From: Bradyrhizobium lablabi
Lineage (GTDB): Bacteria; Pseudomonadota; Alphaproteobacteria; Rhizobiales; Xanthobacteraceae
DNA: 64,000 nt
Assembly (NCBI RefSeq): GCF_001440475.1
Contig: NZ_LLYB01000065.1
Span: forward strand, 1 to 64,000
Direction: 5' to 3'
Both the position numbers and the translations under genes were made by a program. Shown in pieces: positions 17,452 to 43,286 of this stretch. Position 1 is the stretch's first letter; each line of letters begins with the position of its first letter. Under the pieces are notes generated by a model. The model worked only from the letters and a program-made list of their open reading frames with translations, did not search any database and had not been told where the DNA came from.

Positions 17452-17485
17452 CCGGGCCACTCCGTTGAAAGTCCAATCCGACATC

Positions 17486-17555
17486 GCAGTTCGACTGAAC
17501 TGCCAGAGGGGCCCGGGCTTGGATGTGCGTAGAAGAAAGACGCAGTCAGACTGCG
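17486..17555. other. two palindromes in the upstream region of terC
   Basis: GCAGTTC-GACT-GAACTGC (17486-17503) is a perfect 7-bp hairpin beside the upstream alternative terC start. CGCAGTC-A-GACTGCG (17541-17555) is a perfect 7-bp palindrome with a one-base centre, better suited to a dimeric regulator than to an RNA hairpin. No manganese (yybP-ykoY) riboswitch could be recognised. Confidence 0.4.
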
Positions 17556-36956: not shown

Positions 36957-39662
36957 ATGGCTGACAGGAACTGGCAGGCAGGACGGAAGAATTCGATTCC
37001 GGCGCAGGCCCTCGTCTGTCTGCTCGCCACCGCCATGCCGTGCGGAATGGCGTGGGGCGCCGGGCCGTCCGCGGGCTTTGCGCCGGCGAGCTATATCGGC
37101 GAATTCGATCCCAACCGGGTGTGGGAGTTCCTGATCGGCGGAATCGTCGTCGTGTCCTTCCTGGCTGCGATCGGCATCTGGATTTTGGCGGCGTTGCGCG
37201 GTGCCAAGAGCGCGCAAATGCAGCGCAGCGCCTTCATCAGCTCGGCGCTCAACAATCTCAACCAGGGCGTGATGATGACCAACGCGCAAAACCGCGTGGT
37301 CTTCGTTAACGACCGCTTTCTCGAAATGTACGGGCTCAGCCGCGCCGAGATTTCGAGCCGCATGACCGGCCGCGAACTGCTCGAAGTGCGCCGTGCGCGG
37401 GGGCTGCTCAGTCTCACCGTCGAGGAATTCAGCAAGCTTGCCCGCCGCCCCGAAGGCGTCGTCACCGAACTGCCGGACGGGCGATCGGTGCTGTCGAAGA
37501 TCTTCCGCCTGCCCAACGGCGGGACGATCGGAACGCATGAAGATTGCACCGAGCAGCGCCAGCTCTCGCGCAAACTGGCATCGACCACCAAGTTCCTGGA
37601 ATCGGTGCTCGACAACGTTCCGGTCTGTGTCGCCGCCAAGAACATCGAGGACGGCCGCTATATCTTCGCCAACCGCGCGTTCGAGCGCTTTTCGCGCTTC
37701 TCCCGCGATCACGTCGTCGGCAAGCGCGCCGATGAGATCTTCCGGCCCGAAACCGCGAAGAGCATTGAGGCGGCAGACCAGGCGGCGTTGACAGCGCCGG
37801 AAGGTTACCATCGCAGCGAATACGTCGTCGAACGCGGCGACGACGAACGCGTTCTCTCTTCCAACCGCGTGGTCGCACGCAACGAGAACAACAAGCCGGA
37901 ATTCCTGATCACGCTGTTCGACGACGTCACCGACCGGCGGTCGCTGTCGCGCGAACTCGAAAACACCAAGAAATTCCTCGAGCTGGTGGTCGACAACATC
38001 CCGGTGTCGCTGATCGTCGAGCGCGTCAGCGACGGGCGTTATCTGCTCGCCAACCGCAGCGCCGAGACCATTCTCAATCGCCGCCGCGAGGACGCTACCG
38101 GCCTTACCGCCGCCGATATCTTCAATCCGCGCGAGGCCAAGCTGATCATTGCGCGTGACGAGGCCGCGATTAAGAAGCGCGGCCTGCTCACCGAAGAGCA
38201 CCCGATCTCCACCAAGGATGGCTTGCGGCTGTTCCTGACCCGCCGCATGACCGTGCTCGACGAGGCCGGCGAGCCGCAATATCTGATCAAGACCCATGAG
38301 GACGTCACCGACCGCCGCCAGACCGAGTCGCGGATGGCGCACATGGCCTATCATGACGGCCTGACGGACCTGCCGAACCGCGCCGCCTTCCTGCAGGCGC
38401 TGGCGCAGATGATCGAGGCTTGCGCCGGCACCGACGAGGAATTCGCGGTCTTGTGCGTCGACCTCGACGGATTGAAGGAAATCAACGACGTGTTCGGCCA
38501 CGCCATGGGCGACAAGCTCCTGATCGAGGTCGCCGGCCGCATCCAGGCCTGCGCCCGCGGCGGCGTGGTCGCCCGGCTGTCCGGCGACGAGTTCGGCCTG
38601 ATCATTGACGGCAAGCAGCCGGAAGCGGGCAAGGCGCTCGCCGAAAAACTCGCGCAAACGCTGTCGGACGAGTTCGTGATCGACGGCAAGTCGGTGCGAA
38701 CCGGTGTCACGACCGGCATCTCGGTATTTCCGCATAACGGTTCTGACGCAGCTTCGCTGCTGGCCAATTCCGGCGCGGCGCTGTTCCGCGCCAAGCAGAA
38801 GTCGCGCGGCTCGATCAGCGTCTTCGAGCCGGAGATGGACCAGCAGATCCGCGACCGTCGCGTGCTGCACCAGGACCTCTCGATGGCGATCCGGAACGGC
38901 GAATTGTCGCTGTATTACCAGCCGCAGGCCGCGGCGGGCCCCACAATCGGCGCCAGCAAGGTCATCGGTTTCGAGGCGCTGGCGCGTTGGATCCATCCGG
39001 TGCGCGGTTTTGTGTCGCCCGGCGAATTCATTCCGCTCGCCGAAGAAAGCGGCCTGATCGTCGAGATGGGCGTCTGGATCCTGCGCGAAGCCTGCCGCGA
39101 GGCGGCCTCCTGGCCGGTGCCGATGCAGATCGCCGTCAACCTGTCGCCGGCGCAGTTCATGCATGGCGACGTCGTCAGCCTGGTGCATTCGATCCTGCTC
39201 GAGACGGGTCTGGCGCCCGACCGGCTCGAACTCGAAATCACCGAAGGCGTGCTGATCGAGGATTTCGACCGCGGTCTCGCCCTGTTGAGGCGGCTGAAGT
39301 CGCTCGGTGTGCGGATCTCGATGGACGATTTCGGCTCCGGCTATTCCTCGCTGAGCTATCTGCAGGCGTTCCCGTTCGACAAGATCAAGATCGACCGCGC
39401 CTTTGTCATGAATCTCGGGCGCAATCCGCAATCGGCCGCGATCGTTCGCGCCGTCATCGACCTCGGCCACGGCCTCGAAATGTCGATCGTCGCCGAAGGC
39501 GTGGAGACCCAGGAGCAGCTCAGCTTCCTCGCCGACGAAGGCTGCGACGCCGTGCAGGGCTTTTTGCTCGGCAAGCCCCAACCGATCGGGCACTACGCCG
39601 CGCTGGTCGGCCGCAGCGCCGCCAACGACGTCGAGACCGAGCGCAAGCTCGCCAGCGCCTGA
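36957..39662 (+). CDS. membrane PAS-GGDEF-EAL cyclic-di-GMP protein
   Basis: A 901-residue signalling protein. An N-terminal hydrophobic segment and a membrane helix (VVSFLAAIGIWILAAL) anchor it. Three PAS-like units follow, about 95-205, 210-325 and 330-450, then a GGDEF domain (about 463-620) and a complete EAL domain with FEALARWIHP (Glu near 673), LELEITEGVLIED, DDFGSGYSSLSYL and EGVETQEQL. The GGDEF site reads SGDEF and the I-site is absent, so cyclase activity is doubtful while the phosphodiesterase looks intact. It probably breaks down cyclic di-GMP in response to an internal signal. Confidence 0.9.
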   Translation: MADRNWQAGRKNSIPAQALVCLLATAMPCGMAWGAGPSAGFAPASYIGEFDPNRVWEFLIGGIVVVSFLAAIGIWILAALRGAKSAQMQRSAFISSALNNLNQGVMMTNAQNRVVFVNDRFLEMYGLSRAEISSRMTGRELLEVRRARGLLSLTVEEFSKLARRPEGVVTELPDGRSVLSKIFRLPNGGTIGTHEDCTEQRQLSRKLASTTKFLESVLDNVPVCVAAKNIEDGRYIFANRAFERFSRFSRDHVVGKRADEIFRPETAKSIEAADQAALTAPEGYHRSEYVVERGDDERVLSSNRVVARNENNKPEFLITLFDDVTDRRSLSRELENTKKFLELVVDNIPVSLIVERVSDGRYLLANRSAETILNRRREDATGLTAADIFNPREAKLIIARDEAAIKKRGLLTEEHPISTKDGLRLFLTRRMTVLDEAGEPQYLIKTHEDVTDRRQTESRMAHMAYHDGLTDLPNRAAFLQALAQMIEACAGTDEEFAVLCVDLDGLKEINDVFGHAMGDKLLIEVAGRIQACARGGVVARLSGDEFGLIIDGKQPEAGKALAEKLAQTLSDEFVIDGKSVRTGVTTGISVFPHNGSDAASLLANSGAALFRAKQKSRGSISVFEPEMDQQIRDRRVLHQDLSMAIRNGELSLYYQPQAAAGPTIGASKVIGFEALARWIHPVRGFVSPGEFIPLAEESGLIVEMGVWILREACREAASWPVPMQIAVNLSPAQFMHGDVVSLVHSILLETGLAPDRLELEITEGVLIEDFDRGLALLRRLKSLGVRISMDDFGSGYSSLSYLQAFPFDKIKIDRAFVMNLGRNPQSAAIVRAVIDLGHGLEMSIVAEGVETQEQLSFLADEGCDAVQGFLLGKPQPIGHYAALVGRSAANDVETERKLASA

Positions 39663-39756
39663 TTTCTCTAATCTCTGTCACCCTGTGCTCACCACCATGA
39701 TGCCAACGGCCGCGTGACCTCGCGGGCTGTTCGAATGTGAGCTCGACCAGGCCTTC

Positions 39757-39785
39757 TTGCCTTCCATGGCAGCCCCGGTTAGTTT
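39757..39785 (+). promoter_or_regulatory. possible promoter of the leader-ABC-F transcript
   Basis: TTGCCT (39757-39762), 17 bases, then TAGTTT (39780-39785). Only a partial match to sigma-70. It lies 36 bases before the leader ORF, so its start would include the leader Shine-Dalgarno. Confidence 0.3.
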
Positions 39786-39820
39786 AGCGGCCTACCTGAT
39801 CGAGAAAGGAGGGCTGCGCG

Positions 39821-39892
39821 GTGACGACATTTTTCCACCACTATCGCCAGCGTGGCCCCGTCAACGCCCTGCAAATGCGTTTGCAGGGCTGA
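39821..39892 (+). CDS. 23-residue leader peptide upstream of the ABC-F gene
   Basis: GTG at 39821, 23 codons, TGA at 39890-39892, with AAAGGAGGG (39805-39813) 7-8 bases before the start, the best ribosome-binding site in the region. The peptide opens with MTTFFHHY and has Arg-Gln-Arg at residues 9-11, then Gly-Pro. Arg/Lys-x-Arg/Lys is the known motif at which macrolides arrest ribosomes. The last eight sense codons coincide with a perfect 10-bp hairpin. Peptide and hairpin therefore overlap as in attenuation leaders. It is too short for homology to be judged by eye; the call rests on initiation signal, motif and position. Confidence 0.6.
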   Translation: MTTFFHHYRQRGPVNALQMRLQG

Positions 39893-39905
39893 CCAGAGGC
39901 TTTTT
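39855..39905 (+). terminator. attenuator hairpin at the end of the leader ORF
   Basis: The core GCCCTGCAAA-TGCG-TTTGCAGGGC (39866-39889) is a perfect 10-bp stem. It extends outward: GTCA (39860-39863) pairs with TGAC (39890-39893) past a two-base bulge, and GCC (39855-39857) pairs with GGC (39898-39900) across a small internal loop. TTTTT (39901-39905) follows directly. The outer stem is what brings the hairpin next to the T run. Confidence 0.6.
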
Positions 39906-39915
39906 CGTAAATCTC

Positions 39916-40057
39916 TTCCTGGTCTGCCCCTCGTGGCAATGCGGCGTCGAACGTCTGATCGTTCGCGCCTGCATTTTCCGTAGCTCGCCGCGCTCCGACA
40001 CCACGTCCGATGATGGCTGCATGCCCCGGACGTCGTGGTCGCCGGCAAGACCAGGGA
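39916..40057 (+). promoter_or_regulatory. possible anti-Shine-Dalgarno pairing in the ABC-F leader
   Basis: TTCCTGGTC (39916-39924) can pair over 9 bases (one G-U) with GACCAGGGA (40049-40057), which holds the ABC-F ribosome-binding site. The same CTGGTC can instead pair with GACCAG at 39891-39896, at the leader stop codon. The remaining spacer (39925-40048) shows no gene. Confidence 0.35.
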
Positions 40058-40063
40058 ACGATC

Positions 40064-41590
<1,527 letters not shown>

Positions 41591-41690
41591 AGCGTTTTCC
41601 AGCGAAGTGGAGACCGGTTCGCGTCAAGAAAACGCGTCAAAACAAAAATTAGAGCCCCGTTCCGATTCCATCGGAACGGAAAAGGCTCGA
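41591..41690. repeat. composite palindromic repeat after the ABC-F gene
   Basis: Two hairpins: GCGTTTTC (41592-41599) with GAAAACGC (41628-41635), and CCGTTCCGAT-TCC-ATCGGAACGG (41657-41679) flanked by GAGCC and GGCTC (41652-41688). This wording, with AAAACGCGTCAAAACAAAAA between, resembles a repeat common in spacers of Bradyrhizobium. It may also end the ABC-F transcript. The rest of the spacer to 41801 holds only the promoter side of glpD. Confidence 0.65.
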
Positions 41691-41801
41691 CTGCGGCGGC
41701 CGCATGTTTCATCCCCCGACATGATTTCCAGGAGTGACATCCACTTTTGGCCATCATGCCCTAGTGTAGTGAAATCAGATTCTCTCCAGTAGCGCTTGCG
41801 T

Positions 41802-43286
41802 ATGGCGGACTACGATCTCGCGATCATTGGCGGCGGGTTGAACGGCGTCAGCATCGCGCGCGACGCCGTCGGCCGTGGCTTGCGCGTCATTCTGCTGGAG
41901 CAGGGCGATCTCGGCGCGGGCGCCTCGTCGGCCTCGCCGCGGCTGATCCATGGCGATCTGGCGGGGCTGGAGCGCCGGCATTTCCTGCGCGTCCGTTCCG
42001 CGCTCGGCGAGCGCGACACCTGGCTCAGGATCGCGCCGCATCTGGTGCGCCCGATGCGCTTTGCCATCCCCGCCCATTCCGACGAGCGTCCGGACTGGCA
42101 GTTGCGCTCATGGCTGCTGCTGTATGACCGGCTGGCCTCGCGCAGCGGCCTGCCGGCCTCGGCGACCATCGACGTCACGCATCATCCGGTCGGCAACGCG
42201 CTGAAGCGGCCGTTCGGCACCGCCTTTGAATATTCCGACTGCATCGTGGACGATTCGCGCCTGGTGGTTCTCACCGCCGTCGATGCCGCGGCACGCGGCG
42301 CGGTGATTCGCACCGGCGCGCGCTGCAGCCGGGCCGAACGCGGCAGGGAATGGCGGCTGGTGACGATCGATCGTGGGTTTCGCCAGGTGGTCACGGCAAG
42401 GGCGGTCGCGAACGCCACCGGCGCCTGGACGCCGTCCGTTGCCGAGACGGTGTTGCGCGTGCCGCCGCCGAAGCTCGCCGCCGTGCAGATGGACCAGATC
42501 ATCGTCCGCCGCCTGTTCGACAGCGACAACATCTATGTGTTCCAGAACAGCGATGGGCGGCTGATTTTCGCCAGTCCCTATGAGCGCGATTTCACCCTGA
42601 TCGGCACCGTCAGCCATGCCTTCAAGGGTGATCCCGCCATCGTCGCGATGGCGGCTAATGACGTCGCCCATCTCTGCGACGCGGCGAACCGCTATTTCCG
42701 CGAGCGGATCGAGACGGTCGACGTGGTGCGCACGCTTTCCGGCGCCAACATGGTGCTGCCAGCCGCGAGCGGGCGCGACGGGGCGATCACGCTCGACCAC
42801 GGGCGGGGCAAGGCGCCGCTGCTCACGGTGTTCGGCGGCGACGTCACCACCTCGCGGCTGCGCGCCGAGCGGGCGGTCTCGGAACTCACGCCGTTCTATC
42901 CGATGTCGGCGCGCTGGACCGCCAAGGCGCCGCTGCCCGGCGGCGATTTTGCCTGGGACCGCTTCGACAACGAGGTCGAGGACGTCCGCGACCGCTGGCG
43001 GTTTCTCGGCGAGGAGCAGGCGAGGCGGCTGGTTGCTGCCTATGGAACCAACGCCAGGGAGATCCTCGGCGAGGCCAAAGCGCGCAGCGAACTCGGCCCG
43101 GCCTTCGGACCGGAGTTGACGGGCGCTGAAGTGCACTATCTCATGAATAAGGAATGGGCGCGTTTTCCGGACGATATCCTGTGGCGGCGCACGAAGCTTG
43201 GCCTCGCCATGGAGCCTGAGGATCGCGACGCCCTCGCAGCGTTCATGGCGACTGCAGCACCGGAACTCACATGCGGCGCGCGATAA
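41802..43286 (+). CDS. glpD: glycerol-3-phosphate dehydrogenase (FAD, GlpD family)
   Basis: A 494-residue flavoenzyme that oxidises glycerol 3-phosphate to dihydroxyacetone phosphate at the membrane and feeds electrons to quinone. The FAD fold reads [20 protein letters not shown]. The family motif [20 protein letters not shown] follows, then [11 protein letters not shown] and [19 protein letters not shown]. The length matches. The ATG at 41802 is preferred to a TTG two codons upstream. No glp kinase or transporter gene is adjacent. Its end overlaps a cyclase gene by 16 bases. Confidence 0.9.

Follow-up and report, generated by a model that had tools for sequence, protein, structure and literature searches.

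The 64,000 nucleotides of Bradyrhizobium lablabi DNA analysed here (the window) carry on their plus strand, at positions 40064–41590, a gene for an ABC-F ATPase of 508 amino acids with an ATG start at 40064, which was assigned by domain, profile and fold matches. Two stretches of the protein match Pfam ABC_tran and represent its two ABC domains. The best NCBIfam model is ribo_prot_ABC_F (NF000355), whose score of 281.7 bits lies below the cut-off of 380 for curated ribosomal-protection proteins, and scores against the named ARE models of NCBIfam stay far below their respective cut-offs. Solved relatives are ABC-F proteins, with VmlR2 ranking first by profile and by fold, followed by a mixture of housekeeping and resistance proteins; the TM-scores of the fold matches are low (0.36). 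An AlphaFold model calculated from seven sequences is of moderate confidence (pLDDT 75.5, pTM 0.45) and places helices 209–249 and 252–277 between the two ABC domains, with pLDDT values below 50 at residues 199–218 and 274–293. The model confirms the predicted ABC-F fold only: two ABC domains joined by a helical linker are expected of an ARE protein but are also common to housekeeping ABC-Fs. What defines an ARE is that it confers resistance to a ribosome-targeting drug (PMC6723617).

On the same strand the gene is preceded by one for a PAS-GGDEF-EAL protein (36957–39662) and followed by a glycerol-3-phosphate dehydrogenase gene (41796–43286); annotated plasmid copies of the ABC-F gene are flanked by other genes. 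Inspection by eye revealed inverted repeats right after the ABC-F gene (41592–41700), namely GCGTTTTC...GAAAACGC and GTTCCGATTCCATCGGAAC, and a similar sequence lies 3' of the ABC-F gene at one orthologous locus (L006). Far upstream, at 17469–17524 on the minus strand, the window contains a terC RNA (RF03067) that scores 50.1 bits, above the gathering threshold of 39.9. Within the genus, copies of the ABC-F protein are present in 12 of 36 genomes at 76–100% identity and in two more at 54–55%. This patchy presence is compatible with a resistance role, although it is suggestive only. Matches were found in 41 of 297 genomes at the level of the order (E 1e-120) and in 21 of 385 at that of the class (E 1e-100). 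Named carriers include Rhizobium, Aminobacter, Brucella pseudintermedia and a Rhodospirillales MAG, and plasmid-borne copies occur in Sinorhizobium meliloti (two psymA records), Pararhizobium, Shinella, Ketogulonicigenium and Gemmobacter.

Upstream of the ABC-F gene lies a putative leader peptide ORF, MTTFFHHYRQRGPVNALQMRLQG, which extends on the plus strand from a GTG start to a TGA stop (39821–39892; 23 codons plus TGA) and follows a Shine-Dalgarno sequence, AAAGGAGGG, at 39805–39813. The leader stop is separated from the ABC-F start by 171 nt. The ORF encodes Arg9-Gln10-Arg11-Gly12-Pro13, and its last codons form a 10-bp hairpin (39866–39875 paired with 39880–39889), outside of which GTCA (39860–39863) stands opposite TGAC (39890–39893). 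A TTTTT run follows at 39901–39905. All these elements had been pointed out by a sequence-only reading of the window, and both sequence and translation agree with it. The 111-nt leader region folds with a z-score of −4.35, and none of 200 shuffled sequences was equally stable. A repeat-derived origin of the hairpin was ruled out, as a search of the 8.8-Mb genome that allowed up to three mismatches found its 22-nt core in a single place, its own reverse complement aside. Likewise, Rfam scans ruled out a known Rfam element: no family reached its gathering score in the leader region, and a permissive scan gave only a weak match to IRES_Bip (E 0.12).

A candidate promoter for the leader transcript was recognized at 39757–39784 on the plus strand (TTGCCT followed by TTAGTT). 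The corresponding pattern, CTTGCC-N17-TTAGTT, resembles rhizobial promoters, and a similar strict pattern was found in 21 of the 97 leader loci described below. A sigma-70 scan built on the E. coli consensus detected no promoter.

The leader was then looked for upstream of orthologous genes. From 116 ABC-F loci, seven were dropped whose last 200 upstream bases repeat those of another locus, and the upstream regions of the remaining 109 distinct loci were searched for ORFs of 12–36 codons containing (GP|GS|QP)..A[LP]. Such an ORF was present at 97 of the 109 loci, that is, at 97 of 100 whose ABC-F protein is at least 48% identical to that of the window and at none of nine with less than 44% identity. 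In 92 of the 97 cases it is preceded by a Shine-Dalgarno sequence matching GGAGGG in at least five of six positions; a short ORF of this kind, predicted to be translated, is what a ribosome-mediated translational attenuator requires. One of the three misses, L205 (genome G549), does have the leader according to a covariance model; it escaped the search since the match to ABC-F starts only well within the protein sequence. In this genome the leader (L230 and L205) precedes an ABC-F copy whose sole reported match starts at residue 209, and the copy seems to be devoid of much of its N-terminal part. The other two, L174 and L176, have kept the ABC-F gene, and the pattern scan recognized no leader in their upstream regions. 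In five annotated plasmid records no gene is listed over the leader, in a gene table known to be incomplete.

Most of the leaders are about 20–24 codons long. Their most conserved peptide element corresponds to Gly12-Pro13-Val14 of the window (39854–39862, plus strand), with glycine in 96, proline in 96 and valine in 84 of the 97, frequencies that for Gly and Pro are partly conditioned by the search pattern, which itself asks for Gly-Pro-like residues. An alanine and a leucine or proline near the core, found in all 97, are imposed by that pattern. All four synonymous codons are used for glycine (GGC 71, GGT 16, GGA 7, GGG 2) as well as for proline (CCC 47, CCT 28, CCG 15, CCA 6). The residue following Gly-Pro is V in 84 leaders, I in 5, R in 3, G in 2 and N, D or F in one each, and never Pro. 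Residues N-terminal to Gly-Pro are highly variable. Arg(−3) is present in 73 leaders and Arg(−1) in 75, the latter being replaced elsewhere by H, Y, C, L, P or F. By contrast with Gly-Pro, a basic-x-basic motif such as that of the window occurs in only 58 of the 97. These counts place the peptide constraint on Gly-Pro(-Val) and rule out Arg-Gln-Arg, which had been put forward as the arrest motif, as the defining feature of the leader. The leader stop codon coincides with the end of the right hairpin arm in 87 leaders, lies inside the hairpin in six and beyond it in four; because its position varies in this way, what is kept is the hairpin rather than the end of the peptide. Pairing of the leader Shine-Dalgarno with the Gly-Pro codons, as seen in the window fold, was considered as the cause of their conservation and rejected, since by eye it is absent in leaders of the Rhodobacterales type.

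Four leaders have Asp or Arg instead of Val after Gly-Pro, namely L142 (1294–1365; Shinella), L177, L169 and L201, and the last three of these also end inside the hairpin. Such natural variants could serve to separate a role of the peptide from that of the RNA. A different ORF was noted at L146 (1305–1388) on a plasmid of Rahnella sikkimica, where an AAGGAGG-led sequence of 27 codons, MLTREVFLISLVLSDRHCSSVTGIVLR, lies upstream of an ABC-F gene whose product is 34% identical; it is devoid of the Gly-Pro motif and perhaps represents a separate attenuator of an enterobacterial ABC-F.

Several controls addressed the specificity of the association between the leader and this ABC-F family. No ORF with the family motif was found upstream of other ABC-F loci (0 of 84, these being the ones with enough upstream sequence among 88). 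At 2000 random window positions, 17 such ORFs were encountered, and in four cases the Shine-Dalgarno sequence matched at 5/6 positions or more. A stricter DNA pattern of the leader matched in 25 of 391 genomes of the family, and at every such locus the ABC-F gene of this family was present. A covariance model built from 59 leaders yielded 16 matches in 385 genomes of the class (E 0.01) and 25 in 398 of the phylum (E 0.001). Those of at least 37.7 bits (13 and 24, respectively) adjoin this ABC-F gene, as judged from the loci examined or from known positions. Through this model 11 genomes outside the set of 97 gained a leader (G974, G245, G1259, G1301, G1328, G1340, G1350, G1391, G1396, G1398 and G549), each with at least 39.7 bits and beside this ABC-F gene, that of G549 being the truncated copy. 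Four weak matches of 28.1–34.7 bits (G783, G816, G824 and G1168) had no ABC-F gene in the stretch fetched and were taken as chance.

Comparison and computed folding point to alternating helices between the leader and the ABC-F gene. The left arm of the leader hairpin (39866–39875) is designated segment 2, and its right arm together with a GACCAG tail (39880–39898) segment 3. Segment 4 is a conserved switch element, TTCCTGGTCTGCCC, at 39916–39929, and segment 5 the Shine-Dalgarno region of the ABC-F gene, GGCAAGACCAGGGAA, at 40044–40058 (all on the plus strand). Segment 3 and segment 5 mimic each other around GACCAG. Segment 4 can pair either with the right arm and its tail (39886–39896, in a helix involving 39919–39929) or with the ABC-F Shine-Dalgarno region, which it sequesters in the unmasked fold of the window.

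Pairing was counted on the alignment of the 97 sequences, with structures drawn on that of the window. For the leader hairpin, 96.6% of the cells are paired, 54 cells are changed on both sides, and such changes affect 6 of 13 pairs. The corresponding values are 94.8% of 969 cells, 15 cells and 4 of 10 pairs for helix 3:4, and 80.9% of 1056 cells, 30 cells and 7 of 13 pairs for helix 4:5. When the partners were slid by one to three columns, pairing reached at most 51.5, 57.6 and 55.3%, respectively. The number of both-side cells exceeded that in 500, 499 and 500 of 500 column shuffles, a control that ignores relatedness, as do all shuffle controls used here. The number of changed pairs was reached by 21 shuffles for the leader hairpin, 35 for helix 3:4 and 83 for helix 4:5; for the latter helix, neither changed pairs nor pair types (equalled in 224 of 500) go beyond shuffles. 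In an independent duplex test, the spacer segments that pair best with the right-arm tail and with the ABC-F Shine-Dalgarno overlap at 81 of the 97 loci, whereas tests of single loci were modest, with no more than 10 of 200 shuffles matching at 53 loci (right arm) and 32 loci (Shine-Dalgarno). By eye, the alternation is also preserved, with different bases, in leaders of the Rhodobacterales type, whose hairpin is CCCCGCG...CGCGGGG. The alignment shows three covarying predicted helices that cannot all form at once, one of which would hide the ABC-F Shine-Dalgarno.

The effect of ribosome position was modelled with a mask of 30 nt, its front edge set at +15 as counted from the first nucleotide of the codon in the P site, and with the cost of opening the ABC-F Shine-Dalgarno as readout. 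With glycine, proline or valine in the P site this cost is predicted to drop by at least 2 kcal/mol at 64, 61 and 61 of the 97 loci, respectively, as compared with 47 for the residue before glycine and six for the fifth codon. In dinucleotide-shuffled spacers, glycine in the P site led to such a drop in 11 of 291 cases. A ribosome at the start codon lowers the opening cost at 12 loci and raises it at 16, and one at the last codon raises it at 27. At 33 of the 97 loci the modelled stall produced no drop of 2 kcal/mol. In the window, the minimum-energy fold swaps partners when Gly12 occupies the P site but not when Arg11 does. However, Arg11 in the A site also reduces the cost at 44 loci, and with a longer footprint (front edge +17) Arg11 in the P site does so at 65 loci as against 60 for glycine, which weakens a sharp assignment of the codon by folding. 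It is conservation of the sequence, rather than folding, that points to Gly-Pro as the pause site.

The leader appears to be part of a genuine and conserved RNA switch that is very probably controlled by the ribosome. A translated leader whose ribosome position governs the ABC-F gene, as the sequence-only reading had envisaged, is indicated by the comparison of orthologues that it had called for: conservation was found for the reading frame, for the codons that precede the hairpin and, with compensatory changes, for the stem, whereas Arg-Gln-Arg was not conserved. That reading is to be corrected on two points, which are the motif and the level of control. We consider it likely that the ABC-F gene is controlled by translational attenuation of the erm/CplR type, the pause site being a Gly-Pro within the leader. 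If no pause occurred, the leader would be translated and released, its 3' codons would refold into the hairpin (39866–39889), and segment 4 would remain on the ABC-F Shine-Dalgarno region, so that little ABC-F protein would be made. A ribosome pausing near Gly12-Pro13 would mask the left hairpin arm in part and leave the right arm and its GACCAG tail free to capture segment 4, and the ABC-F Shine-Dalgarno would be released. The ABC-F protein then translated would act on stalled ribosomes. We infer that the ribosome does pause at Gly-Pro and that expression rises thereby, and the usual inducer would be a ribosome-targeting compound that acts in mid-elongation and not on ribosomes at the start codon. 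Poor induction is expected of drugs that arrest ribosomes on that codon, because a ribosome modelled there eases access to the ABC-F Shine-Dalgarno at so few loci.

The trigger of the pause may be a ribosome-targeting drug or, alternatively, an intrinsic pause that the ABC-F protein relieves. The second option would make the leader a monitor of the SecM/MifM type, in which a drug-free pause at Gly-Pro(-Val) induces the ABC-F gene when ABC-F activity is low and is relieved by its product. Although unlikely on balance, such feedback has a basis in related systems. Among the RAPP-like motifs tested in one study, RGPP generally gave the most robust arrest (PMC12992588), and RGPV, which is present in 68 of the 97 leaders, has the first three residues in common with it; moreover, MsrD is described to repress its own induction via its leader (PMC10314930), and TiaA and Are5sc to tune their own expression (PMC12421871). 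On the other hand, replacement of the A-site proline is reported to relieve RAPP arrest (PMC10951233), and at this position 89 of the 97 leaders have Val or Ile and none has Pro. Val or Ile there would suit a conditional pause. The presence of the gene in only 14 of 36 genomes of the genus (more than 50% identity) also suggests that its role is accessory and not that of a housekeeping gene. It is conceivable, if somewhat doubtful, that the leader bears an arrest code not described before, (Arg)-Gly-Pro-(Val/Ile), through which the ribosome would itself sense a Gly-Pro-dependent pause. Such a pause would be induced by a drug under a new context rule, or else it would be intrinsic and subject to relief by ABC-F. 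If an intrinsic pause were true, this alphaproteobacterial ABC-F family would be a self-monitoring stall-relief factor that displays its natural substrate in its own leader.

Less probable still is transcription attenuation of the MsrD/VmlR type, which had been proposed from the window alone and in which the hairpin, its outer stem and the T-run would terminate transcription unless a ribosome stalled on Arg-Gln-Arg opened the hairpin. The T-run adjoins the extended stem in the window and could, together with the hairpin, form a weak intrinsic terminator in this strain (39901–39905, plus strand). Precedents are MsrD, which uses a terminator (PMC10314930), and CplR, for which a combination of transcriptional and translational attenuation is described (PMC10201436). 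Yet an uninterrupted run of five Ts lies no farther than 25 nt from the right arm at only four of the 97 loci, that of the window included, and five or more Ts in eight positions at 15, which rules out a terminator as the conserved output. Furthermore, it is Gly-Pro and not Arg-x-Arg that is conserved, and the pairing of the switch element that has been conserved is with the ABC-F Shine-Dalgarno, a target at the level of translation. A simple terminator scan of 39600–40100 detected no terminator-like site, probably because the T-run sits 11 nt from the core hairpin. By analogy with CplR, an extra transcriptional layer may exist in the window strain.

A structured RNA that responds to a small molecule, a protein or an sRNA, with the ORF being incidental, would account for the strong conservation of the RNA helices, but it is very hard to reconcile with synonymous variation at the Gly and Pro codons, the Shine-Dalgarno match in 92 of 97 leaders and preservation of the frame as far as the hairpin; the Rfam scans, too, offered no such family. 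Equally improbable is an action in trans of the released leader peptide, for which rhizobial peTrpL of Sinorhizobium meliloti is a precedent (PMC7298713), given the wide variation N-terminal to Gly-Pro, the six leaders whose stop codon falls within the hairpin, and the location of the switch in cis.

The leader–ABC-F arrangement is widespread in Alphaproteobacteria and is found in Rhizobiaceae, Aminobacter, Brucella pseudintermedia, Rhodobacterales and others. Since its Gly-Pro site is internal and strongly conserved, conservation predicts the codon of the pause and, if a panel of drugs is applied as well, could reveal which substrate this uncharacterised family of ABC-F proteins has. Searches of one open-access library yielded no description of an alphaproteobacterial ABC-F leader.

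Among known attenuators, that of ermC has a leader of about 20 codons with alternating helices, and its arrest motif is different from Gly-Pro. In systems of the ermC type the regulated gene encodes a methyltransferase, unlike the gene studied here. The common principle is that stalling in the leader, which there depends on erythromycin, exposes the Shine-Dalgarno of the downstream gene (PMC10219788). The macrolide arrest motif +X+ is present in the window leader and in 58 of the 97 leaders, and hence not throughout the family. Many of the leaders share an Arg-Gly-Pro core with RAPP/RGPP arrest peptides (PMC12992588, PMC10951233). They differ in having Val or Ile as the next residue, so that none of the 97 contains the Arg-(Ala/Gly)-Pro-Pro motif proper, and in their downstream gene, which is an ABC-F gene. 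In addition, a leader of about 23 residues leaves no room for an export signal plus an arrest region, unlike those peptides.

In the literature compared, ABC-F attenuators come from Gram-positive bacteria, and their leaders are very short. Conserved uORFs precede the ABC-F genes vmlR, vmlR2, lsaA, tiaA and are5sc (PMC10201436, PMC12421871, PMC9226507). The sequences given in these reports are MIN, MR[I/M], MK[L/Q] and MAGN (PMC10201436) as well as MVGDDDISG and MLV (PMC12421871), which amounts to 3–9 residues as opposed to about 20–24 codons in most leaders described here. Lincosamides, tiamulin and pristinamycin IIA are described to stall ribosomes on the start codon of the TiaA and Are5sc leaders (PMC12421871). 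MsrDL-MsrD resembles the window locus in that a leader peptide is combined with an ABC-F gene, the stall is drug-dependent, and the ABC-F protein acts on the stalled complex; it differs by a leader of six residues (MYLIFM), a stall at the stop codon and transcriptional attenuation (PMC10314930). Similar in principle is the CplR attenuator of Clostridioides, where a ribosome stalled on a uORF likewise exposes the Shine-Dalgarno of an ABC-F gene (PMC10201436). In that system, however, the uORF has three codons (MRI), the stall is thought to occur just after initiation, and a terminator also acts (PMC10201436). By contrast, leaders of the window type comprise about 20–24 codons with an internal Gly-Pro and a hairpin inside the ORF, are not followed by a conserved T-run, and belong to Alphaproteobacteria.
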